From Styela clava (Eukaryota > Chordata > Ascidiacea > Stolidobranchia > Styelidae), in assembly GCF_964204865.1 (NCBI RefSeq), contig NC_135260.1, positions 992,001 through 1,056,000 on the forward strand: 64,000 nt of DNA, in the 5' to 3' direction. The position numbers and the translations under genes are program-made. This document shows, in pieces, positions 9,801-45,460 of the stretch; the first letter of the stretch is position 1, and each line of letters begins with the position of its first letter. Below the pieces are notes generated by a model. The model was not told the DNA's origin. It did not search any database and worked only from the letters and a program-made list of their open reading frames with translations.

Positions 9801-12800
9801 GTTTTCGCAAACTGAGTCGTGGGGATCCGTGATGACGGCACAGGGGAACCGCAACGATAGTCGGAAACATATCTATTTAAATGCATATACACTGTCACAC
9901 AGACATTCGTAATCGAGATAAACGATAAAGAGAAATAGTCCATCTCTTACAAAGTTTAGGATACGTATTGCGTCCCCAAAAGAAAGTTTGGTTTTTCTAA
10001 CTTTGTGAAACATCCCAACGATGTCACTACCACGCCCACGAAAATATTTGGTGAAATTTTGATATATATTTCCTCGACATGCCATATTTATTCAAAAATA
10101 TCCGATTGCTGCAAAACGACACTGAATCTATGCACGACGAGCCACCGATTGTATCAAAACTTTTGGTACCTGGAATCAATATGGTATTGGTAGAAATATT
10201 GGTACTCCCGAAGTTTGTGAACCAAAATGACGGATACCGGAACGTATGTATGTGTACCGCGTTAAGGTTAGGCCATAATGTTAGGTACAAATACTACGGG
10301 AATCACTTGACTAGCTCGTAATAGAACTAAATTAAGTAAAATTGGAATAAAACTATGGCCTAACCCTAACCTGGTACACATACTACATTCCGTCGTCCGC
10401 CATCTTGGTTCACACACTTCGGGAGAACTAAAATGTTTCGGGGATAAAAGTGATCAACTGAAAAAATAAAAGTTGATAACAACTGCTAAGGAGATATATT
10501 TGGCACAGAGATGAACAAATTAGTGCAGAAGTAAATTCGATAACAACGGACAAAAGCTAGTTCGATTTTTGATTATCTTTTGCAATTCGATTTCATTTGC
10601 ACTGGTCACAATACAAAAAAATGATTCCGGGGGTTAAGCTAGTTTAAAACGGCAAAAATATAAAACGGTCATTTCCTGAAATAAGTCAAACAAGTTTAAA
10701 GGTTCAAAAAGAAACTGACCAGGTCAAAATAGTGTTTATGTCGATACTCATTGTATAATCAGAAAACAAAAATGGTTGTTTAAAACAAGTTTTCTCAAAC
10801 TGGGTCGTGGGGATCCGTGATGACGGCACAGGGGAACCGCAACGATAGTCGGAAACATATCTATTTAAGTGCATATACACTGTCACACAGACATTCGTAA
10901 TCGAGATAATAGATAAAGAGAAATAGTCCATCTCTTACAAAGTTTAGGATACGTATTGCGTCCCCAAAAGAAAGTTTGGTTTTTCTAACTTTGTGAAACA
11001 TCCCAACGATGTCACTACCACGCCCACGAAAATATTTGGTGAAATTTTGATATATATTTCCTCGACATGCCATATTTATTCAAAAATATCCGATTGCTGC
11101 AAAACGACACTGAATCTATACACGACGAGCCACCGATTGTATCAAAACTTTTGGTACCTGGAATCAATATGGTATTGGTAGAAATATTGGTACTCCCGAA
11201 GTTTGTGAACCAAAATGACGGATACCGGAACGTATGTATGTGTACCGCGTTAAGGTTAGGCCATAATGTTAGGTACAAATACTACGGGAATCACTTGACT
11301 AGCTCGTAATAGAACTAAATTAAGTAAAATTGGAATAAAACTATGGCCTAGCCCTAACCTGGTACACATACTACATTCCGTCGTCCGCCATCTTGGTTCA
11401 CACACTTCGGGAGAACTAAAATGTTTCGGGGATAAAAGTGATCAACTGAAAAAATAAAAGTTGATAACAACTGCTAAGGAGATATATTTGGCACAGAGAT
11501 GAACAAATTAGTGCAGAAGTAAATTCGATAACAACGGACAAAAGCTAGTTCGATTTTTGATTATCTTTTGCAATTCGATTTCATTTGCACTGGTCACAAT
11601 ACAAAAAAATGATTCCGGGGGTTAAGCTAGTTTAAAACGGCAAAAATATAAAACGGTCATTTCCTGAAATAAGTCAAACAAGTTTAAAGGTTCAAAAAGA
11701 AACTGACCAGGTCAAAATAGTGTTTATGTCGATACTCATTGTATAATCAGAAAACAAAAATGGTTGTTTAAAACAAGTTTTCTCAAACTGGGTCGTGGGG
11801 ATCCGTGATGACGGCACAGGGGAACCGCAACGATAGTCGGAAACATATCTATTTAAGTGCATATACACTGTCACACAGACATTCGTAATCGAGATAATAG
11901 ATAAAGAGAAATAGTCCATCTCTTACAAAGTTTAGGATACGTATTGCGTCCCCAAAAGAAAGTTTGGTTTTTCTAACTTTGTGAAACATCCCAACGATGT
12001 CACTACCACGCCCACGAAAATATTTGGTGAAATTTTGATATATATTTCCTCGACATGCCATATTTATTCAAAAATATCCGATTGCTGCAAAACTATACTG
12101 AATCTATGCACGACGAGCCACCGATCTTATCAAAACTTTTGGTACCTGGAATCAATATGGTATTGGTAGAAGTATTGGTACTTCCGAAGTATGTGAACCA
12201 AAATGACGGATACCGGAACGTATGTATGTGTACCGGGTTAAGGTTAGGCCATAATGTTAGATACAAATACTACGGGAATCACTTGGCTAGCTCGTAATAG
12301 AACTAAATTAAGTAAAATTGGAATAAAACTATGGCCTAACCCTAACCTGGTACACATACTACATTCCGTCGTCCGCCATCTTGGTTCACACACTTCGGGA
12401 GAACCAAAATGTTTGGGGGATAAAAGTGATCAACTGAAAAAATAAAAGTTGATAACAACTGCTAAGGAGATATATTTGGCACAGAGATGAACAAATTAGT
12501 GCAGAAGTAAATTCGATAACAACGGACAAAAGCTAGTTCGATTTTTGATTATCTTTTGCAATTCGATTTCATTTGCACTGGTCACAATACAAAAAAATGG
12601 TGCCGGGGGTTAAGCTAGTTTAAAACGGCAAAAATATCAAACGGCCATTTCCTGAAATAAGTCAAACAAGTTCGAAGGTTCAAAAAAAAAGCTGACCAGG
12701 TCAAAATAGTGTTTATCTCGTTACTTTTTGTTGAATCAGAAAACAAAAATAGTTGTTTAAAACAAGTTTTCTCAACCTGGGTCGTGGGGATTCGTGATGA

Positions 12801-14720
12801 CTGCACAGGGTAACCGCAACGATAGTCTGAGACATATTTTAGTGCATTTACACTGTCACACGGACATTCGTAAACGAGATAAACGATAAAGAGAAATAGT
12901 CCATCTCTTACAAATTTTAAGATATGTATTGCGTCACCAAAAGAAAGTTTGGGTTTCCTAACTTTGTGAAACATCGCAACGATGTCACTACCACGCCCAC
13001 GAAAATATTTGGTGAAATTCTGATATATTTTCCTCGACATGCCATATTTATTTAAAAAATATACGATTACCGCAAAACTATACTGAATCTATGCACGACG
13101 AGCAACCGATCGTATCAAACTTTTGGTACCTTGAATCAATATGGTATTGGTAGAAATATTGGTACTCCCGAAGTATGTAAACCAAAATGACGGATACCGG
13201 AACGTATGTATGTGTGCGTATGTGTACCAGGTTAGGGTTAGGCCATAATGGTAAATACAAATACTACGAGAGTCACTTGGCTATCTCGTAGTAGAACTAA
13301 ATTAAGGAGAATTGGAATAAAACTATGGCCTAACCCTAACTTGGTACACATACTACATTTCGTCGTCCGCCATCTTGGTTCACACACTTCGGGAGTACCA
13401 AAATATTTGGGGGATAAATGTGATCAACTGAAAAAATAAAAGTTGATAACAACTGCTAAGAAGATATATTTGGCACAGAGATGAACGAATTAGTGTGGAT
13501 ATTAAATTCGATAACAACAGATAAAAGTTAGTTCGATTTTTGATTATCTTTTGTAATTCGATTTCATTTGCACTGGTCACAATACAAAAAAATGGTGCCG
13601 GGGGTTAAGCTAGTTTAAAACGGCAAAAATATCAAACGGCCATTTCCTGAAATAAGTCAAACAAGTTTGAAGGTTCAAAAAAAAGCTGACCAGGTCAAAA
13701 TAGTGTTTATCTCGTTACTTTTTGTTGAATCAGAAAACAAAAATAGTTGTTTAAAACAAGTTTTCTCAACCTGGGTCGTGGGGATTCGTGATGACTGCAC
13801 AGGGTAACCGCAACGATAGTCTGAGACATATTTTAGTGCATTTACACTGTCACACGGACATTCGTAAACGAGATAAACGATAAAGAGAAATAGTCCATCT
13901 CTTACAAATTTCACGATACGTATTGCGTCACCAAAAGAAAGTTTGTTTTTTCTAACTTTGTGAAACATCGCAACGATGTCACTACCACGCCCACGAAAAT
14001 ATTTGGTGAAATTCTGATATATTTTCCTCGACATGCCATATTTATTCAAAAATATACGATTGCCGCAAAACTATACTGAATCTATGCACGACGAGCCACC
14101 GATCTTATCAAAACTTGTGGTGCCTTAAATCAATATGGTATTGGTAGAAATATTGGTACTCCCGAAGTATGTGAACCAAAATGACGGATACCGGAACGTA
14201 TGTGTACCAGGTTAGGGTTAGGCCATAATGTTAGGTACAAATACTACGGGAGTCACTTGGCTAGCACGTAATAAAACTAAATTAAGGAAAATTGGAATAA
14301 AACTATGGCCTAACCCTAATCTTGTGAACATACTACATTCCGGTGTCCGCCATCTTAGTTTACACACTTCGGGAGAAAATATTTGGAAAAAAATTTGATC
14401 AAGTGAGTTAACTGATAGAATAGAATTTGATAACAACTGCTAAGAAGGAGCTATATTTGGCACAGAGATGAACGAATTAGTGCAGAAGTAAATTCGATAA
14501 CAACGGACAAAAGCTAATTAGATTTCTGATTATTTTTTGCATTTCTTTTTCATTTTACTGGTTACTATGCAAAAGGGGTTATGCTAGTTTAACACGGCAA
14601 AAGTTTCAAACGGTCACTTCCTGAAACAAGTCAAACAAGTTAGTTTGTAACGACGCTGAACAGGTTATAATAGTGTTTGTGTCGATTACTCACTGTTGAA
14701 TCAGGCACTCGAGAGTTAGA
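6815..14720. repeat. Tandem array of ~0.98-kb units containing a foldback MITE
   Basis: The marker CCATCTCTTACAAA recurs near 7,977, 8,969, 9,941, 10,929, 11,917, 12,902 and 13,897 (steps 992, 972, 988, 988, 985, 995), with diverged partial units at both ends. Each unit contains three parts in order. The first is a foldback MITE of about 240 bp. The second is a block with TTGATAACAACTGCTAAG and TTCGATTTCATTTGCACTGG. The third is a hAT-like remnant (TCTCAAACTGGGTCGTGGGG then ATCCGTGATGAC). Units starting near 10.6 and 11.6 kb are almost identical, while outer units are diverged. The array fills the space between the two lectin genes. Open frames of 60-141 codons recur in every unit on both strands but are not supported as genes. 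Confidence 0.95.
7237..7487. mobile_element. Foldback MITE with inverted GGTTAGGGTTAGG, first of eight in the array
   Basis: The left arm reads roughly TTGGTACTCCCGAAGTATGT, then ACCATGTTAGGGTTAGGCCA. The right arm is its inverse, with TGGCCTAACCCTAACCTGGT and later CGGGAGTACCAAAATA. The arms are about 100 bp around a 60-80 bp loop. Further copies in the array are near 8231-8480, 9224-9462, 10196-10434, 11184-11422, 12171-12411, 13157-13407 and 14149-14377. No coding capacity is seen. Solo copies lie at 17.1, 47.4, 58.4, 59.3 and 63.8 kb, so this is a mobile family and not part of the satellite alone. Confidence 0.85.
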
Positions 14721-19829: not shown

Positions 19830-19951
19830 TATAGAGGACTTGCACGGGTCACGTGACTTTGTTACTGGACGGCAATAAAACAAAAACGTCCATTTGGCTC
19901 CTGTCAGTTGCAAGTCGGATTATACGTTTCCGTTTTGTTTGGTTGTTGAAA

Positions 19952-20155
19952 ATGGTTATTTCGTATTGTTCCGTTGGCTGTACGTATAGTATAGACAACG
20001 AAATAGATCTTCAGTTATATTCCACTGATTTCAAAAGATCCGGGACGTCGCGCAATGTGGATATCATCTATTGCCTATTGGCAGAACTGCTTGGTGTCAA
20101 GTCCAGAAGCCATCTTACTTGTGTTTCAATGTTTGCGGACAGCACTTCGTTGATG
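19952..20155 (+). pseudogene. Decayed THAP-domain exon in the left arm
   Basis: The frame starts MVISYCSVGCTYSI, like the first zinc ligands of a THAP domain (C-x2-4-C), preceded by an ATG about 120 bases inside the element end. The second ligand pair appears in a different frame as VCGQHFVDG, matching the C-x2-H-F end of THAP domains, and is followed by a GTGAGTG donor. The two halves are out of frame, so this is a decayed first exon of a THAP-type transposase (P or Kolobok superfamily). Confidence 0.55.
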
Positions 20156-20424
20156 GTGAGTGATAATGTGGTGATAGTGTGCCGTTATCAATTTCTTTAA
20201 ATATTCACAAGCTCCCTCATTTCAACGGAAAGCAGATGACAAACTACTGTTATTAGTAGGCCTAGGCGTGGGCCTACTTCAGTACTTGCAGTTGCAGACT
20301 TGACTTGTGTAAGACAGTAAGGAATTAATAATCAATTGCTATAAGGTATTGTTTCCCTAATTAGCAGGTAATCTATTACTAAGTGTGAAGGGTTGAATAG
20401 ATAACTAAAGTTTAACACCAGTGG

Positions 20425-20648
20425 TCATGCAAAAAATAACCAGAATTCAATTGAATTCGCCATCTAGGAATACGCTCGCAACCGCCTCTGTGATCACCCT
20501 GGTAGTTTCACAGGTTTCAATCCCATGCGGGGATAGTTATGTGCGAGAGGATTGCAGCTCTACTCCCACCGAGGGTGGTTCACATGACCGCTGATCGGTT
20601 ACGACCATTCCCCACCATCCAAGTCCATGCTTCTGAAAACAAATAACT
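20425..20648 (+). mobile_element. tRNA-derived SINE head in the left arm
   Basis: GTTTCACAGGTTTCAATCCC resembles a pol III B box, preceded by GCTCGCAACCGCCTCTG. It is followed by the family's body motifs ATGCGGGGATAGTTATGTGC, GAGAGGATTGCAGCTC and CATGCTTCTGAAAACAAAT. The same body occurs at 49.1, 50.0 and 53.3 kb. The inverted copy in the right arm is at 22,381-22,603. Confidence 0.65.
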
Positions 20649-20649
20649 G

Positions 20650-20667
20650 CCCCCCCCCCCCCCCCCT
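20650..20667 (+). repeat. Run of 18 C
   Basis: An uninterrupted C tract lies exactly at the inner end of the left inverted arm, where homology with the right arm stops. It may have been involved in the breakpoint, or its length may be a sequencing artefact. Confidence 0.9.
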
Positions 20668-22380
20668 CGTGATTTTTTTATGGTGATTGGTAAAAAATAT
20701 ATGCTACCCGGAATCAAATTCATTTACGACTAGTGGCTGTGGTGGGATATGGACATAAATTTCACACTCCTTGATCGTTAGTTTTTATGAAAACTCTATC
20801 TGTATCCATTATCTTACAGATATGGGTGCGACCATGGAATAGATGGATGGCAAAGTATGAGTTGCAACAAGACCACAGTGACACAAGACCTCATCTTGCG
20901 TGACTTGATAATACATCCTCAGGATCCATTTATTGATGCTTATCGTAATGACAAAGTAACTTGTGATTACTGTGGATTGGTGGAGATAAAGTGTCAATTG
21001 TGCTTTAACGAAAGCAACTTCAAGACGACCCTATCAAGAAAAAAAAATTGTTTCGGTGGGTCTGGTAGTGAAGGTTTTTGTCTAACGTTGGACACCGATA
21101 CTACAACCAGACATACTACAACAGTTGCCAATGTAACTTTCCGAGGCGTAATATTGCGACTTTGTGATCTGAAAGTAAATTCTGATGGGTAGCCGGCTAG
21201 CCGCAACGTTTTGTTAAAAGAATATTATGAGATATGACTTAAGAGTCTAAACCTCTATTTGAGAGGGGTGTAACCCAAGATAATTTGCAAATGGTATTCA
21301 TGGTACCAAATGTATCACACACTTTACAGTAATTATAAATTATATTTAAAAAATAAAGCACATCAAAAATGTATTTTTAAAAAACAATTGGTTTTATCTG
21401 CAGATACTAGGTTGATATTGAGATTGACCATTTCAATGCTAAATTTTCTTTAGTCAAAAGGCACACTTGATTCGCAAAGATTTGTGAATGCGCACAGTAC
21501 ACCAATTTGTCTAATGTTTTGATTCCATAGGCAGGAGGTTGTGGATCGGTGCTGCTCAGGATGGGATATTTTAGCCTCTAAATGCATATTACGTGTTTCA
21601 CATGAATCCATCGTGCTCAGATTCGACTGTTTTCAAGGTCTGAAGGCTCCAACAGCCTTATTTTATGGGTACACAAGAGAATTTTCAGTGTGGCATGCAT
21701 GGGTCAGTTGGAGTCACTAACCTCAAGATATCTTTAAGCGAGGATAAGATAACCTGGAAGTAACATTCCATAATTTAGAGTAAAAAATGTATTTGCCTCC
21801 ACAGCCCTTTCAAATGGAAGATATGATGCCTCGGGGGTAATTTCTTTCAAATATTTTACAGTATTATGGTTCTAGTGAAAAGGGGTGTAGGCGGCTTTTT
21901 TTAAAGTGTGGTAGGTCTAGTCGAAAGAGACATTAAATGTTTATGCTAACAACTGCAAATTAATATTGCAACGCATACAAGTTAACAGAATTTGTTGAAA
22001 TGGTCCTGGCTTTTGCCTTTCTTCAAAATCCCCCTTTTTCTAACTATTCTCTTCCTCTCTGGGGATGGCGAAAATTCAAATATCGATGGGACATATAAGC
22101 AGCTGATAATGGGTTAGCTTCCCTTTTTCATGAAAATAAATTAAACACTAATCATCATTTGACAGTGCCAAGTTTGTGTATCAGATCAGTAATAAATTAC
22201 CTGCTAACTAACAAAACAATCAGACAACACCTTCTGACCATTAATGAAGATTTCTTTCAATTTAAAACGCAACTATGCCTACCAATGTGGGTAGTTTTTA
22301 GGGTAGAATTTATTTGTGGTTGGGGACAGATTGCAAGGTGCAACATCGTACGATACCATTCTATGTCGGGATTAGTTAGC

Positions 22381-22603
22381 CAGTTATTTGTTTTAGAAGC
22401 ATGGACTTTATGGTGGGGGATGTCGTAATCGACCAGCGGTCGTGTGAACCACCCTCAGTGGGAGGAGAGCTGCAATCCCCTCGCACATAACTATCCCCGC
22501 ATGGGATTGGAACCTGTGAAACTCCCAGGGGGATCAGAGATGCGGTGGCGAGCGTATTCTTAGATGGAGAATTCAATTGAATTCTGGTTATTTTTTGCAT
22601 TAG
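22381..22603 (-). mobile_element. tRNA-derived SINE head in the right arm
   Basis: This is the inverse of the left-arm SINE, with AACTATCCCCGCATGGGATT marking the end of the B-box region. Beyond the end of the arm homology it continues briefly with GGCTAACTAATCC, a SINE body segment that the left copy has lost next to its C tract. Confidence 0.65.
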
Positions 22604-22844
22604 CACTGGCGTTAAACTTTAGTTATCTATTCAACTTTTCACACTTACTAACCTGCTAACTACCTGCTAACTAGGGAAACAATACCTTATGGCAATTATT
22701 GATTAATACCTTACACGAGTCAAGTCTGCAAGTAGGCCTACGCCTAGGTCTACCAATAACAGTAGTTTGTCATCTGCTTTCCATTGAAATGAGGGAGCTT
22801 ATGAATATTCAAAAAAACTGATAACGGCACATTATGACTTCAAT

Positions 22845-23041
22845 CAACGAAGTGCTGTCCGCAAACAGTGAAACACGAGTGAGATGGCTTCTGAACTTGA
22901 CACCAAGCAGTCCTACCAATAGATGATATCCACATTGCGCGACGTTCCGGATCTTTTGAAAACAGTGGAATATAACTGAAGATCCATTTCGTTGTTTATA
23001 CTATACGTACAACAGCCAGCGGAACAATACGAAATAACCAT
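22845..23041 (-). pseudogene. Decayed THAP-domain exon in the right arm
   Basis: This is the inverted counterpart of the left-arm exon, starting at the ATG at 23,041 and again showing VCGQHFVD in a shifted frame. It has several substitutions relative to the left copy (for example a stop soon after the CGQHF motif), so the arms have diverged since duplication. Confidence 0.5.
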
Positions 23042-23689
23042 TTTCAACAGCCAAACAAAACGGAAACGTATAATCCGACTTGCAACTGACAGGAGCCAAA
23101 TGGACGTTTTTGTTTTATTGCCGTCCAGTGAACAAGGTCACGTGTCCCGTGCAAGTCCTCTATACAGGATGTACATAAGGACATTAAGATTATTATTACA
23201 GAGCTAAATGATGAATTTCTCAAATTTGACTGGATGGACACACTGTATATATTTCCCGAATTGTTCATCTTATGACAAATATGAAGTGCACCCCTCAAGA
23301 TGACATTATTTATAGAACAGTGAATACCAGCGAGTGAGCAAAGCTTTTTTATCACAGCCCATGATGCCTCGCGCACTTCTCTCGTTCTGAGCGGCCTGTT
23401 ATCAACAAGTATTCATCATGCGTATGGAATTTGAACCCGGGATGTGAAACAACGTTAAATTAACCAATATGACACCGCGCTATAGGAATTATAGGAATAG
23501 AAGGAATTAGCGTTGTTGTAAACTGTAACTGTACTTATAGAAACTCAACGCAATCAATTTAGACATCTGCACAATGCCAATGTGAAATTCCCCTTTTCCA
23601 GTGACCTTCTTGTTGCTCGGTATTTGTAGAAATATCAAAAATAAATAATTTTATTCTGAAATTTGCGAAGAGGTAAATTAAAGAATAAC

Positions 23690-27299: not shown

Positions 27300-28007
27300 T
27301 TAAAATGAAGGGATTTTTCTTCGATAAGATAGACGTTGGATATGACAGACGGCAGCAACAACGATTAACCATAACGATTTGTGTGTGAAACCGAGAACAA
27401 AAAGACAACATGATTTTTTTTTATTATTAATATCCACACGATAACACATAAACACAAATGCACAGTTTATGATAACTTTCCACTTCTTAACGTGTTTTAA
27501 CAGTTTACATTTTCTAGTTGCAATAATTTTTTCACAGTTTAATATACTTTTTATCATATATAAAAATTGATCAAATTGAGGCCTTTCATAACGTAGTGTA
27601 CATTTATAGATATAATATCTTGCACTCCATAAAACACAGTTTAAACCTTGGTTTTGCTCTACCCCCATTAAGATTTCTCTATATGTCAGATTAAGATTTA
27701 GACCATATTCAACAGTTAGCCATGCATTAACTATTTCCCAAACTTGTTGCACAAATTCACAGAAATAAAATAAATGTAACACGGTTTCAACATTCCTTTC
27801 ACAAAATGTACATTTCGGACTTGATGTCTTATTTATCCTAAATAATAGGTAATTTGTAGGTACTGCTCGCAAAGCAAATTTAACATGGAAAGATCGAAGT
27901 CTCGATTCGATAGTGCAATAAAAAACTTTTTCATACTGCGTCAACCAATTATCCAAGTTCTTGCACAGTTCATTTGACCATTTTTCTATTTTCTCCTTAG
28001 GCATCAA
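27300..28007 (-). pseudogene. LINE copy A C-terminal zinc-ribbon (zf-RVT) region
   Basis: A 235-codon open frame includes FHVKFALRAVPTNYLLFRIN, then CTFCERNVETVLHLFYFCE. This is the zinc-binding domain that follows reverse transcriptase in many L1/Tx1-type and plant LINEs. It ends in the 3' UTR shared with copy B. It is an intact stretch of a broken ORF2. Confidence 0.85.
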
Positions 28008-28152
28008 GATTTTTACATTACGAAGCTTATCATATATGTATCTGGAAGTTTTATCGATGCGTTAATATCTTCCAATAGACTAAGATGTGGATTGGCTTGA
28101 GGGGTTTTTACTAAATTGTTTTTCCATGCTTGGGGTATACATGATAAAATTT

Positions 28153-29390
28153 TTAAATATGATTGCATGTCATTATAAAAATCAGAAAAGCAATAATGAT
28201 GAAAATGATTGGAAACGTTACAATTTGGTGTTTAGAATCACAGATATCTTCAATAAAGCAAAGATTTTTTCTATTCCGATCTTCAGTATATAACATTTTC
28301 CCTTTAATTGATATCTTTTTATTAAACCACAGTGGTTCATGCAAGTGACGTACATCAGTAACAACTTTAGATTTAAAAATATGCCAATAGTATAGAGTAT
28401 CTCTTAAACATCTCGACTTAATGTTTTTAATAAATATTCCAAATGGATATACATTTCCATAGAACAAATTCATTCCTACATATAAATTTAGAAAAAATAA
28501 TTCTATTCATTTTCGTATATAAAAATACCCAACAATTTAAAATCTGTTGGGTTCCACTCAAGTCCTCGATCTTTCACAGGACAATTTTGGCAATGATTGT
28601 TTCCCCCCGGGTACAAAGGTTAGCATTTGCTCATTTTAATTTTGCATCTAGACATGGAATAGAAAATATCGGTTTCATAAAATATCGTTTTGATGCTTTT
28701 TTCCGAGCCATCAGAATACACTGTTGCATCATCTGCAAGCAAGGAAATTTTAATTACTGTGTTTTCAAGACAAATTCCTTTTATGTCATGATTTTGTCGA
28801 ATTTTACATGCTAATATCTCCATTATTAGTAAAAAAAATATATGGTGAGAGACTACAACCTTCCTTGCCTCAAACCTATTGATAACAGTACTTTGACTTT
28901 GGTAATACAATGTTTTGACCCACTTAATAAACATATCATCAAAATTTAAAAATTTCAACACTTCAAAAAGATAATCCCATGAAACAGAATCATAAGCTTT
29001 TCTATATCTAAGTTTAGTGCAGTTCCAGAAAGACCCCTATATTTCAATTCATCTCTGATATTAAAAAATAGTCTCACATTTTAACCAATATACATACCTT
29101 CCTTTGATAAAACCTTTTTGATCATGGTGAATCAATTTTTGTATTCCATTTTTCAGTCTATTAGCTATGCTTTTGGATGCAATTTTATAGTCCACATTCA
29201 ATAATGTAATAGGTCTGTAGTTTTCAATATATTTAAGATTTTTTCCTTGTTTCGGAAGAAGCTTTATAACTCCTCTCGATTGTGATTTGCTCATTTTCCC
29301 GGTTTCTACAGAATAATTGTATGAATTGAGTAGCACTTCTTTAAGATGTTCCCAGAATTCTTTGTAAAATTCCACTGTATAATTATCCAT
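28153..29390 (-). pseudogene. LINE copy A reverse transcriptase, broken
   Basis: Segments in order are 29,390-29,061 (YTVEFYKEFW, GVIKLLPKQGK, YRPITLLNVDYKI, HDQKGFIKGR), 28,961-28,620 (WVKTLYYQSQS, the catalytic-box variant LLADDATVYSDG) and 28,473-28,153 (PLWFNKKISIKGK). These correspond to RT fingers, palm and thumb of L1/Tx1-type elements. The segments are in different frames with stops between them, so the copy is dead. Confidence 0.85.
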
Positions 29391-29580
29391 CTTTTGAATA
29401 TATCTGAATATTCCTCATCCCGATTTCTTTTACTTGAAAGAATGTCTATTTGCATATCGCTTGAATCTTGAATCTTCTTGAAGTTCCCTAAATTCCTTTG
29501 CTTCGTTTTCTGTTTGTATTTCTACTTGTATATTTTCTTTTGGTGTTGGTGTTTGTATGTTCTCAGTACCGGTACCGGTA

Positions 29581-30375
29581 TTACTTTTTGTGTGTTTTGT
29601 CTTCTGTTACTTCAATGTTTTGTAACTGAACATTCCTTTCGTGTGTATGCATTTCCTCAGCAACTGCTGTTTGTGGTAAGCTCTTTCTTTTTAGACAATT
29701 TGTAACGAAGTGTTCGGTGCTATCACATGCACGGCAAGTTTGCTTTTCTCCATCATATTTGACAAAAATTTGCCTGCCATTGATTTCTACATAACTTGGT
29801 AGATCAAACATATTCGTATACTTGGTTGTTTCTACCATAATATTCCAGTTCCCTGCACGAAGAGAAGGAGTTTCCTGATCTTTTACCTCCCAGATTTTCA
29901 GAATACCCTCTGGATTGATGTTGGTAAGTGCTATAATAATATTGTTTATATCTGGTTCTCTGTATATGCCGGGTACCCCACGTAGAATAACTTTTGAAGA
30001 ATTTGACAAAAGAAGTCTTCCTTGAACGTTTTTCATTCCTCCTGGCATAATGTACGAATCTAATTTCAAAATATCTCCTCTACACTTTGCAGTTACTTAA
30101 AATACATTCGACCTTCTTTCCACAAGTGCCTCCAATTCTTCCAATTTCAAGCATTGTAAAATTGCATGCTTCACTACTTTTCGATTATCAATATCATATG
30201 GTTTACCAAATCCCGCAACATACTTTATTTCCATGCAACATGGTCTTTCTTTTTTATTTAATGTTGTTGAGAATATTCTCTTTCTTGATTTCGCAAAATT
30301 CAATCCTATAGGCGTTACTGCAGCGTAATTCCCAGCCGGGAACTTGTTCGCACCTCCGCTCGCCATCGTCATCAA
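29581..30375 (-). pseudogene. LINE copy A ORF1, zinc-knuckle protein with one nonsense codon
   Basis: The first part starts MASGGANKFPAGNYAAV and runs to ERRSNVF, where an in-frame TAA (30,097-30,099) interrupts. The same frame resumes at once (KLDSYIMPGGMKNVQGRLLL) and contains an RRM-like stretch (SKVILRGVPG..YREPDIN) and a CCHC knuckle, C-RA-C-DSTE-H-FVTN-C. This is the nucleic-acid-binding ORF1 protein of L1/Tx1-type LINEs. It would act as the RNA chaperone of the retrotransposon particle. A single substitution separates it from an open frame. Confidence 0.75.
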
Positions 30376-30475
30376 TAGATTCTCGTATCTGCGCCCGGGA
30401 CTTCAGTCAAAGTCAGAACCCTCATCAGGTTTGGTAGACCTCGCGCGCACTTAACAGTTTAACTTAACACTTAGC

Positions 30476-32220
30476 GGTTTTTGTGAAATCGCTATTTCAA
30501 ATACGATAATTTTTTGAAATTTTGAAGATAATCCACGAGAGGACGTAACTTGGTTTTTGGTATTTTATACTTTCCGCAACTTATTCCAAGTTTAATGATC
30601 GTACAGTATATATGTATGTCCAAGAGAAAAAAATGTTTGATAAATAATCTAGTAAATTTAGTTGAAATATCAAACGGTTTTTAAATATGTTACGTCTGCA
30701 TTGTTTATAAAATTTTGAATACACGCTATGTTTGGTATTATATATGGCCAAGTCAAAACGTGCTGCTACTGTTCTGACATAATGAAATTAAATCTATAAG
30801 GTACCTGCTTTTCTTCGAATGTGTCGTAGTGCTGCCTTTATTGGCCATTTTTGAGAAATCGCCCTTTCCAACACGATATTTTTTCAAAAATTCCGGAAAA
30901 AATCCACAAGAGGGCGTAAAATCTTTTTTTTGTTATTTTGAGATTTGCCCACTTCTTCCAAGTTTAATGAACGTACGGTTTTGATGTATGACCAAGAAAA
31001 AAAAAGGTATTTGATGAATTATCCAGTAAATTCAGTTGAAATACCAAACCGTTTTTAAATATGTTTATATCTACATAGTTAATAAAATTGAAAATTATAC
31101 GCTATGTTTGGTATTATATATGGCCAACTCAATACGTGCTGCTACTGTTCTGACATAAAATAAATCGTATCTATAAGGTATGTGCTTTTCTCCAAATATG
31201 TCGTAGTGCTGCCTTCATTGGCGGTTTTTGAGAAATCGCTATTTCGAAAACGATAATTTTTCGAAAATTTGAAAATAACCAACGAGAGGGCTTAAAATGA
31301 TTTTTTTGTTATTTCATACTTTTCGCAACTCATTCCAAGTTTAATGGACGTACAGTATATATGTATGTCCGAGAGAAAAATTTGTTTGATAAATTATCTG
31401 GTAAATTTAGTTGGAATACCAAACCGTTTTTAAATATGTTACATCTACAATGGTAATAAAATTGAAAATTATACGCTATGTTTGGTCAAAACGTGCTGCT
31501 ACTGTTCTGACATATTGAAATCGAATTTATAAGGTATGTGCTTTTCTCCGAATGTGTCGTAGTGCTGCCTTTATTGGCGATTTTTGTGAAATCGCTATTT
31601 CAAATACGATAATTTTTTGAAATTTTGAAGATAATCCACAAGAGGACGTAACTTGGTTTTTGGTATTTCATACTTTCGCAACTTATTCCAAGTTTAATGA
31701 TCGTACATTATACATGTATGTCCAAGAGAAAAAAATGTTCGATAAATCATCTAGTAAATTTAGTTTAAATATCAAACGGTTTTCAAATATGTTACGTCTG
31801 CATTGTTTATAAAATTTTGAATACACGCTATGTTTGGTTATTATATATGGCCAAGTCAAAACGTGCTGCTACTGTTCTGACATAATGAAATTAAATCTAT
31901 AGGGATCTGCTTTTCTCCGAATGTGTCGTAGTACTGCCTTTATTGGCGGTTTTTGAGATATCGTCCTTTCAAACACGATATTTTTTTGAAAATTCCGGGA
32001 AAAATCCAAAAGAGGGCGTAAAATCATTTTTTGGTATTTTAAGATTTGCCCACTTATTCCAAGTTTAATGAACGTACGGTTTTGATGTATGACCAAAGGA
32101 AAAATGTATTTGATGAATTATCCAGTAAATTCAGTTGAAATACCAAACCGTTTTTAAATATGTTATATCTACATAGTTAATAGAATTGAAAATTATACGC
32201 TATTTTTGGTATTTTATATG
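30476..32220. repeat. 368-bp tandem monomers with three-unit higher-order period
   Basis: The start motif TTTTTG(A/T)GAAATCGC recurs near 30,476, 30,845, 31,223, 31,579 and 31,948. Unit 4 matches unit 1 best (CGTAACTTGGTTTTTGG, TGTTACGTCTGCATTG), unit 5 matches unit 2 (GAGGGCGTAAAATC, TTCAGTTGAAATACCAAACC) and unit 3 is distinct. The higher-order period is therefore about 1.1 kb. The array lies directly upstream of LINE copy A's ORF1 and stops precisely where LINE copy B's 3' end begins, so it is probably copy A's 5' UTR. Confidence 0.85.
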
Positions 32221-33298
32221 GCCATTCACGGTTCACCATCAGTAAGTAGGCTATCGGTGCGACACACGGCAACAGCAGTATCGAGAACATGTTAAATTGG
32301 TTATGTTCGTGTACCATGTTGATTGGCTGAACGCTAAATCGGGACTTTTGGCTGACCGTGCGGGACGCCGGGACAAGCCGTTGAAAACCGGGACTGTCTC
32401 GCCTAAAGCCGGATGGGAAAGCCTAGCCATACCTCTTCCATCTTTCAGGATTGAAAATTAAAATGAAGGGATTTTTCTTCGATAAGATAGACGTTGGATA
32501 TGACAGACGGCAACAACAACGATTAACCATAACGATTTGTGTGTGAAACCGACAACATGATTTTTTGATTTCCTATATATAAATATAGGAAAAATAATTC
32601 TATAGATTTCCACGAAGCATCAAATTCATCATTTACTAAAAATTTAACACATCTCAATTTAAGATCAATGAAAAATGATTCAATATCTATCATATTAACC
32701 CATATTAATCATATTATTAATTTTAATTTTGCATCCAGACATGGAATAGAGAATATCGGTTTCATAAAATATCGTTTTGATGCTTTTTTCTGAGCCATCA
32801 GAATACACTGTTGCATCATCTGCAAGCAAGGAAATTTTAATTACTGTGTTTCCAAGACAAATTCCTTTTATGTCATGGTTTTGTCGAATTTTACATGCTA
32901 ATATCTCTATTATTAATAAAAAATATATGGTGAGAGACTACAACCTTCCTTGCCTCAAACCTATTGATAACAGTACTTTGACTTTGGTAATACAATGTTT
33001 TGACCCACTTGATAAAGATATGATCAAAATTAATAAATTTCAATACTTCAAAAAGATAATCCCATGAAACAGAATCATAAGCTTTTCTATATCTAAGTTT
33101 AGTGCAGTTCCAGAGAGGCCCCTATATTTCAATTCATCTCTGATATTAAAAAATAGTCTCACATTTTAACCAATATACATACCTTCTTTTGATAAAACCT
33201 TTTTGATCATGGTGAATCAATTTTTGTATTACATTTTTCAGTCTATTAACTATGCTTTTGGATGCAATTTTATAGTCCACATTCAATAATGTAATTAG

Positions 33299-33907
33299 TC
33301 AGTAGTTTTCAATGTAATTCAGATTTTTTCCTTGTTTCGGAAGAAGCTTTATAACTCCTCTCGAGTGTGATTTGCTCATTTTCCCGGTTTCTACAGAATA
33401 ATTGTATGAATTGAGTAGCACTTCTTTAAGATGTTCCCAGAATTCTTTGTAAAATTCCACTGTATAACCATCTTCCCTCGGGACTGGTATTTGTCTCATT
33501 TCTTTCAGGGCGTTTTCGCATTCCCTCAAAGTTAATAAGCCTTCACTTTGTTGTTTTTCTTCCTCTGTAAGTTTTGTTGTCTGCACAGTACATAAGTATG
33601 CTCTTATATCTTCTGTTTTTGAAATAGTTTTTGGAGTTGATAAATCTTTATAATACTCAGAGGCCATATTTGCTATCTTTTGTGGATCTTTGATTTGCTC
33701 TCCATTGTAATGTAATAAATTGATACCATTTTCGTTCACATTGTACTTTTCTTTTTTCAAAAAATATTCATTACATTTGCCTCCATATTTGGCTTGCTTG
33801 ATTCTGCTTCGAACCATAGCTCCCTGGGCATCTTGAACAACAAGGCTTTCAAATTTCTCTTTATTTATGTTCAATCTGCTTATTTCTTCACTAGTTTTTG
33901 TTGGCAT
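33299..33907 (-). pseudogene. LINE copy B linker and start of reverse transcriptase
   Basis: This region reads QAKYGGKCNEYFLKKEKYN, then NGEQIKDPQKIANMASEYYK, then DGYTVEFYKEFWEHLKEV and GVIKLLPKQGKN. It is the conserved stretch linking endonuclease to RT in L1-like ORF2 proteins. Palm sequences continue in other frames down to about 32,740, with the ADD box in broken context. Confidence 0.85.
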
Positions 33908-34105
33908 ATCCTCCAGCTTTTTAATGTCGATTTCAAGATTTTCTCGCTTTTCCTGGTTTTCTCCTTTCTTTCATGAAGCATATTGAATCGTGTACCCTCT
34001 GATAATACATTTCATTGTATCCCACATTGTTGTTGGTTCAACATATGTATGAGCATGATGTTTCATAGTTTGTTCTATTATCTGGTGTATCAATTCTTTA
34101 TGATT

Positions 34106-34878
34106 TTAATCCATTAATAAACAGTTGTTAAATTTCCAGTATCCTGGACCACGATTATCTGTTTTCCAATCTATTGAAAAACTAGCCATCTGATGATCCG
34201 ATTGAATACTTGCTTCATGCTTACTATCTATTGTATATGTAAGAAGTGAAGCATATATAAGAAAAAAATCTAATCTGGAAGCAACTATTGGAATATATTG
34301 TTCTCTGGTATATTCTTTCAATCCAGGGTTCAGCTCTCTAAATATATCAATTATTCCAATTTCTTCAGCAATACAGTTAATCAGGTTTTTACCATTTTTG
34401 TTTTATGTACTGCTTGTCCACCTCTTTTATCTAGTTTATTATTCATCACTGTGTTAAAATCTCCCTCAAGTATTAATTCAGAAATATCTCTCTCTTCTAT
34501 TTTTTGCAATAATTCGAGAAAAACCTCTGTATCATCTTTGCTTGGACCATACAAGTTAACAAGCATTATGTTTTTTTCTTCAATTTCCATTTGAAGAAAA
34601 ATATACCGGCCTTTTGGATCACAGTATAGATACACTTTCTTGTATGATAGTCTTGTTGATATTAATATTGCAACCCCCGCACTTTGTGATGTATAATTAG
34701 CTGCAATTATTTCATACCCTTTGAATGTGTTTATTTCTCTCTTCATATCATTTGTCCAGTGTGTTTCTTGCAGAAAAATGATTCCGAGCTTTCGCAAATT
34801 GAATAATCGAGAGGCGTTTCTTCTTTTCATACTATCTCGTAAACCCCTACAGTTGAATGTGGTAATTTTCAATGCCAT
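34106..34878 (-). pseudogene. LINE copy B AP-like endonuclease
   Basis: MALKITTFNCRGLRDSMKR is the N-terminal beta strand with the metal-site Asn of the APE-type endonuclease. FLQETHW carries the catalytic Glu, NLYGPS and EGDFNTVMN carry the following active-site residues, and SDHQMASFSI the catalytic Asp-His. The frame shifts near 34,381-34,395 in an A-run (minus strand), and the second part resumes at KEYTREQYIP to GYWKFNN. A stop follows after NCLLMD. This domain nicks target DNA for retrotransposition. Confidence 0.9.
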
Positions 34879-38439: not shown

Positions 38440-38964
38440 TCAAAAAACAAAAAGGCGTAACTTGACTTTCTCATTACGATTCCCTCTTTTTTCATTTAGA
38501 GTGCATGCACATTTCGAGTGACTTTTCCCACATCTGCCGCATTCAACATATTCTTCTACCAACTTCATACTTTCCAAGTAATTGTAACAGGACAGATGGA
38601 CTATACTCTGTTCACAATCACCACATACCATGTTGTTTCCATTTTCTATGATTACTATTTTCTTATAAGTGACGTATTTATTGCTGCAGCACTTTTTCGT
38701 TACAAAATATGCTGTGTTACAGTTGGGACAAGATAATTCTTTTCTATTCTTGGGTATTTTATTAACAAATTTACAATCTCCACACTCTTCTGAAAAACTT
38801 GAGTTCGTTGATACTTTGATTGTTGATTCTATTTTATCTGAATATTCCTCATCCCAATTTCTTTTACTTGAAAGAATGTCTATTTGCATATCGCTTGAAT
38901 CTTCTATATCATTTTTTTCTGTGAATGCAACATCTTCCCATCTGAACAAATTTTCTGTATCCAT
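38440..38964 (-). pseudogene. LINE ORF1 fragment, cysteine-rich C-terminal half
   Basis: The reading frame starts MDTENLFRWEDVAF and is acidic (DSSDMQIDILSSKRN), a stretch shared with the LINE copy A remnant near 29,400-29,470. It then has many CxxC pairs (CGDC, CPNC, CGDC, CGRC). It is therefore the second half of the same LINE's ORF1, lying about 3.3 kb upstream of the copy B endonuclease on the same strand. It probably belongs to copy B, split by the intervening 35.2-38.4 kb insertions. Confidence 0.65.
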
Positions 38965-39039
38965 GTATTCTTCACAAAGTTCCCTAAAGAAAAAAAGACA
39001 ACATAATTCCCTGAAAAAGACAACATAATGACACCGAAT

Positions 39040-39383
39040 TGAAATTCTATGTATAATGTAATTTTACCAGAGGTAAAGAGGTAAGGGTGATAAGCAGTGG
39101 TGGGATTCAAATTTTTTGTCGCCGGTTTCTTCACAAAAGTCATATTTTTCAGCCGGTTCTATTACAAACAGAACACTGACAGTAACCAGTAATGTTAACC
39201 GGTTCGCTGATCTCATAAATTTCCGTGAGACGGTTCGATCGAACCGGCTGAATAAGGCCCACCACTGGTAATAAGGCGCATTCTAAATCGATCGTGCGCC
39301 GTGTAAGTCGGTGTGCATTGTGTATGAAAGAGGTAGTGCTTTGTTGTCTACATTCAAAACTAGCACAGGTACTATTGTTTTAA
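39040..39383. repeat. Host DNA-transposon fragment broken by two insertions (left part)
   Basis: TCTATGTATAATGTAATTTTACCAG, interrupted, then AAGGCGCATTCTAA, ATCGATCGTGCGCC and TTGTCTACATTCAAAAC follow the order seen at 15,060-15,245. The right part continues at 45,329 after the P-like element and includes AATCCGGTGCGGCGTATGG and AAAATACGGTA. It is a Tigger/pogo-like non-autonomous element by the form of its end. Confidence 0.6.
39095..39267. mobile_element. hAT MITE, 173 bp
   Basis: The ends CAGTGGTGGGATTC and GGCCCACCACTG are inverted. The flanking 8-mers gtgataag and gtaataag match at seven of eight positions, the length expected for hAT. The interior has GCCGGTT repeats (AGCCGGTTC, GAACCGGCTG). 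It is inserted in the GCGCCTTAT-type repeat. Confidence 0.85.
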
Positions 39384-39530
39384 CATAGCCATTATATAAC
39401 TAGTCTGGAAGGCCGTATACTGACCTGTTGTTCACAGCGTCATCTAGTGTTGGCGTGGGTAATCCAAAACCACGGCGTCGTCTGCTGTATATTTTTAGGC
39501 CGCTCGCTGCTAACGTTATTCAAATTTCGA

Positions 39531-40485
39531 ATGAAAATGGATTTATCTGAGGAAGAAATGCTTGAATTTTTTGATGACGTGAGTTATATAGTATTGGTTG
39601 CTATACTGAAATAGGATTTGGTCCCGAAGGAATGAATAGTAGTTTAATATATGAATGCAGAAGCCGGCTTTGGTTTGACTAAAAATTTGGGCAGTATTAT
39701 TACATTTAAATTTTGCTTTATATAAACACTTACGGCATATACTTTTTTAGACCAGAGTTTATACCTAAACTATTTTACATATTGATGACGAGATAGAAGA
39801 GAAATGGGGCATATCTGTAGTAGAAATCGACTACGGAAGCGTTGACTGCAAGAAGCAACTGCAGATTGCACTGAGTGATTTGAACATCCAGTTGAACCAG
39901 GAATCACCACTGTGGGAGGAAGTTTTGGCGGATTTGATGGAAATTTCTAGGGAAGAGTCCAGAATTAAAATGACAGCTGAATACATTAAAAAATTGCAGA
40001 AGCCATACTCTAACAATTCTGAAATACCTCATTTGGATGTAAAACGAATAATCAAAACTGCTGCACCGAAAATTATAAAAGAAGCGTTTCAGGTAAGCCT
40101 AACTGAGCCGTTCATGCAAATTTCTGTAACCGAAGACGATAAAAAGGTGATAGAGTACCTAGCTGGGGGATTGCTAAAATGGGGAATAAAGCTTCTAGGT
40201 GGAGAAGGTGCTTCATGGTGCGAAAGCCAAGCTTCTGTGCGCGATCTTCCTGATTTCTTTCAAGAACGCAATAGAGGCGGTCTCATATCAGCATCCGAAC
40301 GTGAATTCCGGTCTCAAGTTTGCAAAAGGATAATAGATGAACGGCGTATTATTGGAAATATTGACATGGACCCCTTCAGCCCCAGTGAATCCAGTATTCT
40401 GACAATTCTCGTGCGAAGATTTATTCGAACAAGGGCCCATATCCATTGCAATACTGAACTGCAGAACAACGTGATAAAAAAATAA
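39531..40485 (+). CDS. Second gene of the P-like element (unknown function)
   Basis: Exon 1 (39531-39578) starts MKMDLSEEEMLEFFDD and ends at a GTGAGT donor in phase 0. Exon 2 begins after TTTTTTAG at 39751 and runs to the stop at 40485, in the same phase. An in-frame TAA at 39,766-39,768 interrupts just after the junction; otherwise the product would be 260 aa. The frame is charged at its start (HIDDEIEEKWGISVVEIDYG) and helical in the middle. It later shows KVIEYLAGGLLKWG and then ERNRGGLISASEREF. The 'YLAG' plus 'RGGL' spacing recalls the C-terminal domain of THAP9/P-type transposases, but I am not sure. It starts about 150 bases inside the left terminus, so it probably has its own promoter there. 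Confidence 0.6.
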
Positions 40486-40988
40486 AAAAAAACTGGACCC
40501 AAATCATATGGACTTCGCGATGCTTTGAAGGATTGTTTTTCCAAATAATCTCATCATTATACCAAAACTATAAAAATTACCCAACAGAACTAGTTTCATT
40601 TTGTGTTTTTTAGCATGAGAAATACCATAGGTAAACTGAACAGGAATTTTGACACTAATATGAAGAATTACACAGACCCTGTAGAGAAAAACAAAAAATG
40701 CACAGGCCAATAATTGATAGCTATTTTTAAAACATGGATGAGGTTCCATAAAATTATACGGGGGAAAGAGCAACTTTTTAATTTGAATTCAGTCTCTCAA
40801 ATAAGAGGCATTTTTGGCGATTGAACCATCGATTAATATAAAAATACAATTTTGGATACATAAACTATTATTTGAAGCAGAGACGGGCCAGTCACTAAAA
40901 TTAGAAACGATTTAAGAAAATGAACTAGTACTTGTATATAAATCCGGATTTATTCGAAGCAAAAAGAACTTCAGCTTCTGGAAATTTA

Positions 40989-43900
40989 TCAATCATTTTT
41001 AATCTCAACATTAGAACCAAAAACCGTATTAAAAGATTTTACAACATCTATTGATCTGGAGTTCGATGTGAACAAACTTAAGGTAGGGTTTCCAGTACGG
41101 GAACCTCGATCGCGTTGATGACCAAAATATGCCTCTAGAGGGTCTTGGTTAATACTCCGTGGTAAAACATAGCTCGCACCACTGCTCAGAACAATACGAA
41201 TAATCGCAGCCATTGAAACGGATGCCATTATCAAGCCATTTCTTGTCACTGAGCAGCATTTTCTGGCGATTAACATCTCCTACTAGTGGCCGACCGTACG
41301 CCTTTTCTTCCCAATCATCCAGGTATTTTAGAAAATCTTTCTCAAGCCATTCTATTCTTTTATCATAGATGTTGTAAAAAGGCTGGCGAGATGGTTTAGC
41401 ATTTTTATTCTGAAATCCTGAGTTCATGCAGTCAAACCACTCGTCTGAATTTAGAATAAACACTGCTAAAGCAGAAAAACCCCGATTTTCTATGGCTTTA
41501 CCTAAAATAAATTATTGGTTTGAAATAGAGGTGAATCAAATTCATGCTGTTTTTTAACCTCGAAGAAGTATATATCTTACCTACAGTATAAGACAAAGTT
41601 TGTGCTGCGATACGTACACTCATTTTTTCCCAGGGACTCGGATTAATATGTGATTCAGTGATTTTATGAAAGAGCCTCAACTCTCCCCGCTTTAGATCTT
41701 CCTAAAAAGAAATTTCATTTCATGATGAAAGTGTTAAGCAGAGGCTTTCACAGCGACATATAGATTCATACCCTTATTAGCTGCCTCACAGGTTCCATAT
41801 AGATGTCTTCTCCGTTCCACAGATTTTTTTTCGTACTAAGCAAATTATTACGACAGGTTTTCAAAAGGTGAGGTGGATCCGGCAGCATGTAGACGTACCT
41901 TTGAATTTAAAATTTTTGCATTACAACCATGCCTTGAGACATATGAGTGCCATCACATACAAATAAAAAGTTTTGTATACCAAGTAACATCAGCAGGGTT
42001 TCTCATTCTGTAAGGAATCCTGTCCTCTTTGGCTGCCATTAAATTTATAGCTGACCTATTTGCTGCAAGACCATCAACTTCAAAATGAAAACAAATCTTT
42101 ATAATTCTGATACTGATATATTCAGGTGTTTAACTAGACTTAGCTGTAATATAACACACAAGAATGCAATGAATTTTTACAACTTTTCTGTATCTTTCTC
42201 GTCTTTCTGTGTTTCTTTCACTAATATCTGTGTGACACCATTGTTACAAATTTTGTACAGAAATAGTTCTATGCTTGACTACATGGTTTTCCATGGCTAA
42301 ATGCACACAACTTGAAGAAAATACCATCTATGTCTGATCAAAATGATTCAACGTATAATAGAAACCACTGAAGAATTAACTTGCAAACAATAGCAAGAAT
42401 AACACAATGAGTCTGATGAGGTATTTCCACCAAAAGGTCACATAATAATAGGACAAGATTCTCTGCATTAATTCCAGCCGTAGGATAATACGCAAGAACG
42501 CCATCCAATTTGGGATGCCTGTGAAATAATGATATAGTTTTAGGCGGCTATCATAACACCTCAAGCAAAGGAAGTATTTACTGGTTGTTATATTCCAAGT
42601 GTGAACCGTGGAGTTGCACAATTGTACAGTGAAAAATGGAATGTGTGCACAGGCACTAAAATAGAGGAGTGGCGTCTCTTATTGAAAATAACTTTACCTC
42701 GAACATATATCGCAAGGACATGATTGGCAATCCTGTTATACGATTTGGACAAATTGTTAATGCATTCATTTCCAAAATCGACATAACCTGTAACCTCCCC
42801 AGTGGATGATTTAAACACAAGATCTTCTGAAACCAAACAAAAAATTCTTTCTAAGCTGCAAAAATTCATGTATATTCTGGAGAAAAAAATAGTAAATTTT
42901 GCATCAGGAGTTGCATAGCCAAATTAATATAAAAAAAGCCTACTCATTCTACTGAAACGTATAATCTGACTACCTTTTATAGACATTTCATCAACTGCAA
43001 GTACAACCATTTTGTCACATTCTTTCTCTGCAGAATCTGCTTCTACTTGTATACGCGCAGCAATGGATTTTTGAAATCCGTATTCACAGGAACCACAGAA
43101 AGCATTTCTGCTATTTTGCAGTGTACGTGGAGCAGGCAAGACTATGATTCTTTGTATAAATTTATACGCAGATGGTGACTTTGCATACAACATGAGACAG
43201 TAACTAATAGTAACAATTGATGTGAACTACAAACAATATCTCCCAGGTCTTTAAATAACTGGTCTATCAATATAACAAGCAAAAAGGTAGTCAAAATCGC
43301 CAGAGAGATGAATGAATTTAATAATGATAATCCCAACAAAAGTAGATTTACCAACCGAATAATAGATGGTGGATATCTCCTTCCAAATTTACTGTTAGAT
43401 TTTTGCAAATGTTGCTGGACTTCCCACCAATCTTTTAAAAACTCATCCTCTGACAATCCTTCAATCATGGAGGACATATTTGTTGAAACCATGATGCCAG
43501 CCTTTCGTACCTCATTTTCAAGATCACTTAAACTGCAAATAGCTTGTAAAACATGAAAGTAAATGAAAACAAAAGCCTTCGTCAATGGTCATTGCGTATA
43601 ATAACTCACCGCTGTCTATTTATATTAGCTAGTGCGACCAATCTTTCTTTACTAGCTGTAGCATAAGTACACCGATTAGCAAGTGGAACATGTTTTAGTT
43701 TTTCGAATCTATTGGTTTTTCGCTTGTCACTGTCTTGATCATGCACATGGAGACGCATACAAGTAGAGCAGATGTTGGGTCTTGCACCAGCATAAGAATA
43801 CGCTATTTCACATTAAGAGCTGATATATCTGTATTGATACAATACCAAATATAAATTCAACAAAAATACAATTAATTATATATCTGTATAGTATATCTGA

Positions 43901-44945
43901 CTAAACGCAAATATATCTTACCTCAATTTCAAGGAAATTTCGCCAGTATCTTCTATTTCTGCAACACTTCTGGGAATCCATGAACTCTTTGTGGAAACAA
44001 CATTATAACCAAAACAAGGAGTGAGATCAACCAAGTTTTTGAGTAAGATTGAAATTGAAATTCCTCTCAAACTTAGTGTCGATGATATAGTGGAAGAGAA
44101 CTCCAGCAAAAGCGCAAGAAAAGTAAAATTGTTTTTGATCAAATTGGCAAATTAAAAGGCTTATTTCCGGTGTCGCATGTAAACTGTGATTAGAGTAGTA
44201 TGTGGAATGAGCTTCGTGTGCATTAATTTGATGCATTCTCCAGTTTTTCAGGGTAATACTTTCAAAAGCTGTAATTATTTCATTGATGGAATTGTAAATC
44301 GAAGATTGAGATGATGAAGATGGACAGTCATTTGTGGATGAATATTTGGGAACAATCCTTCTTGGTGGGCAAGGGAATACTTCATATGCGATTTTCTTGG
44401 CAAACATTTTGTAGGTAATGCTCCTAACTTAATCCAACTTCTTTTATTGGTCTTTTGGATATCTTCATCCTCGAAATGATCACCACAAATTCTGACCTTA
44501 CCATCCTCAATTTTGCTTTTGAAATTAGGAGAGAAGCAATATTTGAACACAACCTGGGTGCAATAGAAAATTACTTAGCAATTAATATTGCAAAATAAGT
44601 GAGTTAATTAGAATACATAATATTAGAATGCATAAAGCACAAAATACACAGTGAAAACTCTTTAGGCTACTTCACATACATCAGTTGCGTGCAGCATATT
44701 TCTGAAATGGAAGCATAAACTTCACCCATGCTTTTGATGGCCGAAATGAAATACGGAAGAAAGGGGAAAATTGTCGATACCAAACAAACCTGATGAAACT
44801 TTTGTGCCCATTCCTTTGAAGGCATTCCAAATTTCTTATTTTTACCATCCGGGACATGATACAAATGGTCACCATTCCCGGATGAACTTTTGCAACCAGG
44901 AATGCAGCAGTATGATCCAGACCATCGATGCTTGCTTGGAACCAT
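40989..44945 (-). pseudogene. THAP-domain P-element transposase (THAP9-like), with lesions
   Basis: Minus-strand exons I can place, approximately: 44945-44790, 44553-44410, 43800-43610, 43532-43353, 43184-42974, 42826-42698, 42518-42405, 42080-41987, 41900-41772, 41702-41582 and 41500-40989. THAP domain: CCIPGC and HLYHVPDGKNKK in exon 1, then ICGDHFEDEDI and KLGALPTK in exon 2. P-transposase core: HVPLANRCTYATASKERLV; AYKFIQRIIVLPAPRTLQ; VVLAVDEMSIK (first catalytic Asp); STGEVTGYVDFG; AYYPTAGINAENL; VDGLAANR; DPPHLLKTCRNN; HINPSPWEKM; and C-terminal SINQDPLEAYFGHQR. Frame conflicts are seen near 44,400 and near 41,236 (between QKMLLSD and NGLIMASVS). It would cut and paste the element via its TIRs. 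Confidence 0.85.
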
Positions 44946-45328
44946 AATTGAATCTGCAACTTACCTAAAAAGCAAATTACAGGCGTAAAAGTGATTAAAA
45001 ATTGACAGCACCGGTACGGTATCGCAGTGGCTTAGGATAGGATTCTGAACTGCTTTCCTGCATATACGGTATATATTCATATTTTATAATAATATAATGC
45101 ATTTTTATTTTCAGTTTTCTATATCTTGTCAACTTTGCGCAACTTCAAATGTGTAACATACCCTGTAAAAAATCTAACAACGCCTGTATGATTCGATTGT
45201 CCAGCGGACGACAGGGGTGTAAAACCCACGCTAACACCAGATGTCGCTGTCAACAACTCGGTGCTCGGTGTCAGCTCGGTGTCATGCAAGAAAGCTAAAG
45301 CTCCCAGACTAGTTATATAATGGCTCTG

Positions 45329-45460
45329 GTTTTAATACTAACCTGGTGGTATACGATATATATATTTTATTCTAACAAAATACAATCTGACCAATTTTGT
45401 TGATGTTTATTGTAATCCGGTGCGGCGTATGGTCCGTAAAATACGGTAAGTATTGGGGCA
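45329..45460. repeat. Host DNA-transposon fragment (right part)
   Basis: This is the continuation of the fragment at 39,040-39,383. It contains GTAATCCGGTGCGGCGTATG and ends near GTAAAATACGGTA, which resembles the terminus of Tigger/pogo-type MITEs. Confidence 0.55.

Follow-up and report, generated by a model that had tools for sequence, protein, structure and literature searches.

A P-superfamily transposon of Styela clava carries a convergent second gene homologous to the transposase C-terminal domain

P elements are a standard model of cut-and-paste transposition and are described, in the literature consulted here, with one transposase chain. A P-superfamily transposon in the ascidian Styela clava poses the question of what a second gene, encoded opposite the transposase, contributes to such an element. 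The transposon spans positions 39384-45328 of the window, i.e. the 64,000-nt stretch of genomic DNA analyzed here (assembly GCF_964204865.1, NC_135260.1, positions 992001-1056000, forward strand; G000:C14:992001-1056000 in the 376.6-Mb genome), whose numbering is used unless another contig is named. The original prediction, made from these letters alone, had proposed a THAP/P transposase gene together with a spliced gene on the opposite strand and had called a two-gene P-like element unusual. Both genes were confirmed, the transposase on the minus and the spliced gene on the plus strand, and the element indeed differs from the canonical one-gene, one-polypeptide P transposase. What the prediction had not recognized is the nature of the second product: it is homologous to the transposase C-terminal domain (CTD), which is missing from the main gene, and the same convergent layout recurs in several divergent families of this genome.

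Both genes were read with the help of other copies. A genome search, in which 40 of 46 candidates were scored so that all copy counts are lower bounds, recovered at least two other full-length copies, at C13:16440256-16446237 and C8:8829470-8835436 (hereafter C13 and C8). The transposase gene (40989-44945, minus strand; ~11 exons, placed by hand) encodes a THAP domain, a putative helix-turn-helix (HTH) domain and an RNase H domain with a GTP-binding insertion. Exon 1 (44790-44945) holds the first half of the THAP domain, exon 2 (43922-44553) its second half and a linker, the exon at 42974-43226 the end of the HTH and the motif VLAVDEM, and the last exon (40989-41501) the motif NQDPLEAYFG. Several frame-breaking indels interrupt the gene in the window copy, including one of 5 bp in the last exon, and exon 2, a single open frame in C8, is broken there; unusual introns were ruled out as their cause, C8 being open at the same places. 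The C8 gene comprises 839 codons over 11 exons without a stop (hand-placed exons, split codons omitted), while C13, which differs from C8 by 0.2% overall, has an open second gene and an open last transposase exon.

Judged by the sequence of its transposase, the element belongs to the P superfamily. The C8 protein scored above the cut-off for the THAP domain (PF05485; 30.7 bits, cut-off 23.9) and, once spliced, for RNaseH_N (PF21787; 58.5 bits, cut-off 24.6) and the GTP-binding insertion (PF21788; 46.2 bits, cut-off 24.8). RNaseH_C was marginal at a cut-off of 24 (24.2 bits in C8 and C13 with their neighbours, 23.2 in the window copy, 18.9 in the spliced C8 protein), and the HTH domain Tnp_P_element (PF12017) remained below its cut-off in C8 (19.3 bits, cut-off 23). 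Among solved chains, the C8 transposase had a single match at E ≤ 1, namely the Drosophila P transposase 6p5a_A (E = 2.1e-16). The aligned stretches include VLAVDEM, CDGLAANR and NQDPLEAYFG, the last pairing with NQDIVEHFFG of 6p5a_A, and we take these three to carry the catalytic D, D and E residues. The alignment stops at residue 433 of the 454-residue query and the protein ends 21 residues later, i.e. before the CTD region; no CTD was found in the minus-strand gene.

The second gene starts beside the left terminus on the plus strand and converges with the transposase gene, the two ends lying ~0.5 kb apart. Its exon 1 (39531-39578; MKMDLSEEEMLEFFDD) ends in the donor GAC/GTGAGT, and exon 2 occupies approximately 39781-40485, its C-terminal half being homologous to the CTD of P/THAP9 transposases. 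The acceptor at 39779-39780 reads AG in all 16 other loci holding this stretch and AT in the window copy; the donor reads GT in 11 and AT in 4 of 15 other loci, and the start codon reads ATT in two. In C8, a 16-codon exon and a 263-codon exon, separated by a 207-nt intron, yield a product of 279 aa, longer than the 260 aa originally predicted; in the window copy, exon 2 is shorter than in C8 and C13, having lost 30 bp in frame and reaching its stop codon earlier. A frame of at least 230 aa arose in only 2 of 1000 random element-sized sequences, so that the long frame is unlikely to be due to chance. Sequence profile and predicted fold both match the second protein to the CTD chain of the Drosophila P transposase, and an N-terminal stretch of ~130 residues precedes the CTD-like part. 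Plain Foldseek with the predicted fold gave no significant match, and a second structure model, drawn from the C18, C2 and C6 genes only, was of low confidence and was set aside. A known non-transposon gene was considered and rejected, as there was no Pfam match and the single-protein search of solved structures returned a chance-level match only (E = 0.88). The second gene had no match in phage records, and no relative of it was confirmed in viral contigs.

Does this layout extend beyond one family? A CTD query from C6 gave 61 matches (E up to 10) at 37 loci, a count that leaves out the window element's own family and in which many loci are copies of one family, and a transposase query from C18 gave at least 104 matches at no fewer than 83 loci (103 of 640 candidates scored). 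A transposase match lay within 6 kb of 27 of the 37 CTD loci, in convergent orientation in 26, divergent in one and on the same strand in none; the remaining 10 had no such neighbour among the matches listed. At the single divergent locus, the CTD match is an additional piece near a transposase that already has a partner. By identity, the CTD loci fall into about four families (C18/C2; C6 and relatives; C19:15771903 with C2:30759413; and C9:14680099, a weak match at E = 0.024), and the window family brings the split families to about five. In the three split families whose main genes were read (C8, C18, C6), these genes end after RNaseH_C and lack a CTD. In another P family of the same genome the CTD is fused to the transposase: all nine THAP9_C loci over the cut-off lie on the same strand, directly behind RNaseH_C. 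This fused family, in which transposase and THAP9_C share a single long frame, was seen at G000:C9:2461013-2463517, C13:4853917, C6:11275790 and other loci, three of which have open frames of 822-834 aa.

The window family shares only 34-36% identity in the catalytic core with other families of convergent layout. Across four sequences, split elements were 34-64% identical to one another in this core and 24-27% identical to the fused family; these values, higher within the split group than between it and the fused family, fit a single split clade, although four sequences are not a tree. In the fetched locus L059 the ends of the C18 family could not be located, and the right end probably lies beyond this locus. 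Relatives of the C18 transposase were confirmed in neither viral nor prokaryotic contigs, and relatives of the separate CTD were not confirmed in viral contigs.

The second gene is a component of the element. In both other full-length copies it sits at the same place, and a whole or partial match to it was present in 18 of 20 fetched copy loci. The two loci without a match (L026 and L027) are fragments missing the entire left part of the element; no copies were found that lacked the plus-strand gene such that it could be traced to an unrelated insertion, and an insertion into one copy is ruled out by its presence across the others. The gene also evolved under purifying selection, a point that the original prediction had proposed to check: comparing C8 with a subfamily consensus gave a ratio of nonsynonymous to synonymous substitution rates (dN/dS) of 0.23 (42.5 synonymous against 41.5 nonsynonymous differences over 279 codons), and exon 2 alone, using a consensus of 13 loci, again gave 0.23. 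For the transposase exons retained in an older subfamily, ~81% identical, the ratio was 0.30 (392 codons). Reading the exon-2 DNA in the five other frames as a control gave 1.08, 1.08, 0.87, 0.32 and 1.39, and we take the low antisense value of 0.32 to reflect mirrored codon positions. Single copies against their own consensus ranged from 0.29 to 1.14 (13 copies; the more distant L028, at 0.35, and the short L021 and L023 were set aside, and L027 gave no value), as expected for decay after insertion. C8 compared with the window copy gave 0.39, a value based on 6 synonymous differences and 9 nonsynonymous ones; for two C18-type copies, the value of 0.64 came from 14 differences, too few to use, with control frames (0.31-3.71) overlapping it.

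The termini were recovered as predicted. Alignment and pattern search returned terminal inverted repeats agreeing at 24 of 25 bases (arms of 28 nt, 93%; 39384-39411, plus strand, and 45301-45328, minus strand), approximate subterminal inverted repeats (39427-39487, plus strand, and 45202-45257, minus strand) and the flanking 7-bp target-site duplication GTTTTAA (39377-39383 and 45329-45335). The terminal-repeat pattern matched twice in the whole window, both times at the element ends, against a chance expectation of none, and the repeats are likewise present at both ends of C8 and C13. Among 11 inspected copies, eight had perfect 7-bp duplications, two a damaged left end and one ends without a duplication; none had an 8-bp duplication. 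C13 and C8 have 7-bp duplications of their own (CCAGGAC and GTTATAT) and are 99.8% identical over aligned bases, each being 98% identical to the window copy. They are the younger full copies, and their near-identity points to recent movement of the element. The window copy, predicted to be complete, does retain both ends, the duplication and both genes; it is nevertheless a dead element with both genes broken, since the exon-2 splice acceptor is lost and the transposase carries frame-breaking indels.

Members of the 81% subfamily have in common the internal loss of element positions 2003-4333, with the deletion junction seen in L011-L014, L016-L019 and L027; they are transposase-deleted derivatives that retain the second gene, L027 being the exception as a fragment. 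In this subfamily (read in L011, L012, L014 and L016), element position 1750-1757 holds an insertion of ~0.4 to 2.3 kb that we take to be hAT-like; it starts with CAGGGGTCTC, ends in CCCCTG or similar and is flanked by an 8-bp CTCTAGAG-type duplication. A further series, at G000:C19:5345567-6726894 (L021-L025), repeats the left part of the element (positions 1-946, with most of the second gene) 12 times, once in two parts. Spacing is 82-102 kb among the first eight pieces and 58-437 kb among the rest; most frames are broken, and matching right-part pieces (941-1044 and 5309-5945) occur elsewhere. The series may represent a large segmental array or else an old copy that received a large insertion.

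Set beside Drosophila P (6P5A/6PE2), the main gene has the same order of THAP, putative HTH and RNase H with its GTP-binding domain (GBD), and both elements have inverted and subterminal repeats. They differ in that the CTD is part of one polypeptide in Drosophila and a separate convergent gene in Styela, in the length of the duplication (8 bp versus 7 bp) and in gene structure (four ORFs in 2.9 kb versus ~11 exons in ~6 kb). Zebrafish P element-like transposons and THAP9 have a homologous transposase, and the fused Styela family carries the Pfam domain THAP9_C; excerpts of the zebrafish literature place the domains, the CTD included, in one chain (PMC10983969) and report 8-bp duplications (PMC7776569), the length also described for canonical P elements of the Drosophila, Anopheles and zebrafish type. 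The fused Styela family (L061, L065 and L066 were read) has homologous RNase H/GBD and CTD regions, but there the CTD follows RNaseH_C in the same frame, with a stop inside it in L066. The window element thus departs from the canonical pattern in two features, the 8-bp duplication and the single-gene transposase with its CTD in the same polypeptide. Among the titles and beginnings of abstracts of the open-access literature, a scope outside which Repbase and subscription journals fall, no earlier report of a split transposase in a P-type element was found.

How, then, might the two genes work together? We consider it likely that these elements form a P-superfamily clade whose transposase is split into two convergently transcribed subunits, with the CTD acting in trans. 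The element would be an autonomous-type cut-and-paste transposon. Its minus-strand gene would supply the catalytic subunit, composed of the DNA-binding THAP domain, the putative HTH and the RNase H domain with its GTP-binding insertion; its plus-strand gene would supply the CTD as a separate protein behind the N-terminal stretch. We infer that the second protein would dock on the catalytic subunit, perhaps through that stretch, and complete the complex, taking in trans the place of the covalent CTD of the Drosophila transposase and helping to keep transposon and target DNA in place; transposition would need both products. A CTD that serves as a free subunit is plausible. We lean more mildly toward a further-reaching version, in which the two-subunit transposase is obligate, excision or integration can be switched by the balance of the two promoters, and the split is either a single event, in which the 3′ portion of a fused gene was inverted, or the original state from which fused genes later formed.

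It is possible, though on balance doubtful, that the second protein is instead a CTD-derived regulator—a repressor or assembly inhibitor—and that the catalytic subunit works without a CTD. The transposase-deleted 81% subfamily retains the second gene, as a regulator might lead one to expect, and truncated repressors, the 66-kDa and KP proteins, are known from P elements (PMC7776569). However, the 66-kDa repressor as described there retains the THAP N-terminus and is devoid of the C-terminal third, the opposite of the second protein, and main genes without a CTD in C8, C18 and C6, next to a fused P family, are more readily explained by a division of labour than by a spare copy. Far less probable is a passenger without a role in transposition, such as the end piece of another P-like element taken up in the opposite orientation: the CTD homology could stem from a nested element and many copies are decayed, yet the second gene is under purifying selection, no further copy of the element's terminal repeat lies inside it, and the identical convergent layout is found in families as distant as 34-36% identity. 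We give the least credence of all to a joining of the CTD at the RNA level by trans-splicing into one fused protein. The ~0.5 kb between the gene ends would suit it, but the genes lie on opposite strands, and most other copies preserve the start codon, the intron and the N-terminal stretch that are particular to the second gene. The data disfavour both of these last explanations, and we retain the split transposase as our preferred reading.

Other features of the window include a 207-aa open frame (38440-39063, minus strand) that lies a little to the left of the element and contains several CxxC pairs, with weak zinc-ribbon matches only. A tandem array of about seven 0.98-kb units occupies 7155-14640, parts of the unit recurring at 47568, 58513 and 59437, and a long, multi-armed inverted repeat at 19857-23136 (arms reaching 230 nt at 91%) is possibly a foldback element. 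Broken remnants of long interspersed nuclear elements (LINEs) with endonuclease and zf-RVT domains lie at 27300-34878 on the minus strand, and among them is a four- to five-copy repeat (30554-32209). Such LINE remnants, along with the introns and the THAP/P genes, identify the DNA as eukaryotic.

Convergent two-gene architectures have a precedent in RAG-like transposons (ProtoRAG), which combine a RAG1-like and a RAG2-like gene in one transposon (PMC7204232). The transposase families differ, the Styela enzyme matching P-type Pfam families and not being RAG1-like. The RAG-like partner is RAG2-like and not a piece of the transposase; Harbinger-type elements, too, pair a transposase with a second protein, but their transposase is unrelated and the partner Myb-like. 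The convergent layout of enzyme and partner resembles that of RAG-like transposons without implying relationship, and adds, beside these, a second case of a convergent two-gene transposon. For the P superfamily, a natural split with the CTD as a gene of its own demonstrates the potential modularity of this domain and opens its role to direct testing.
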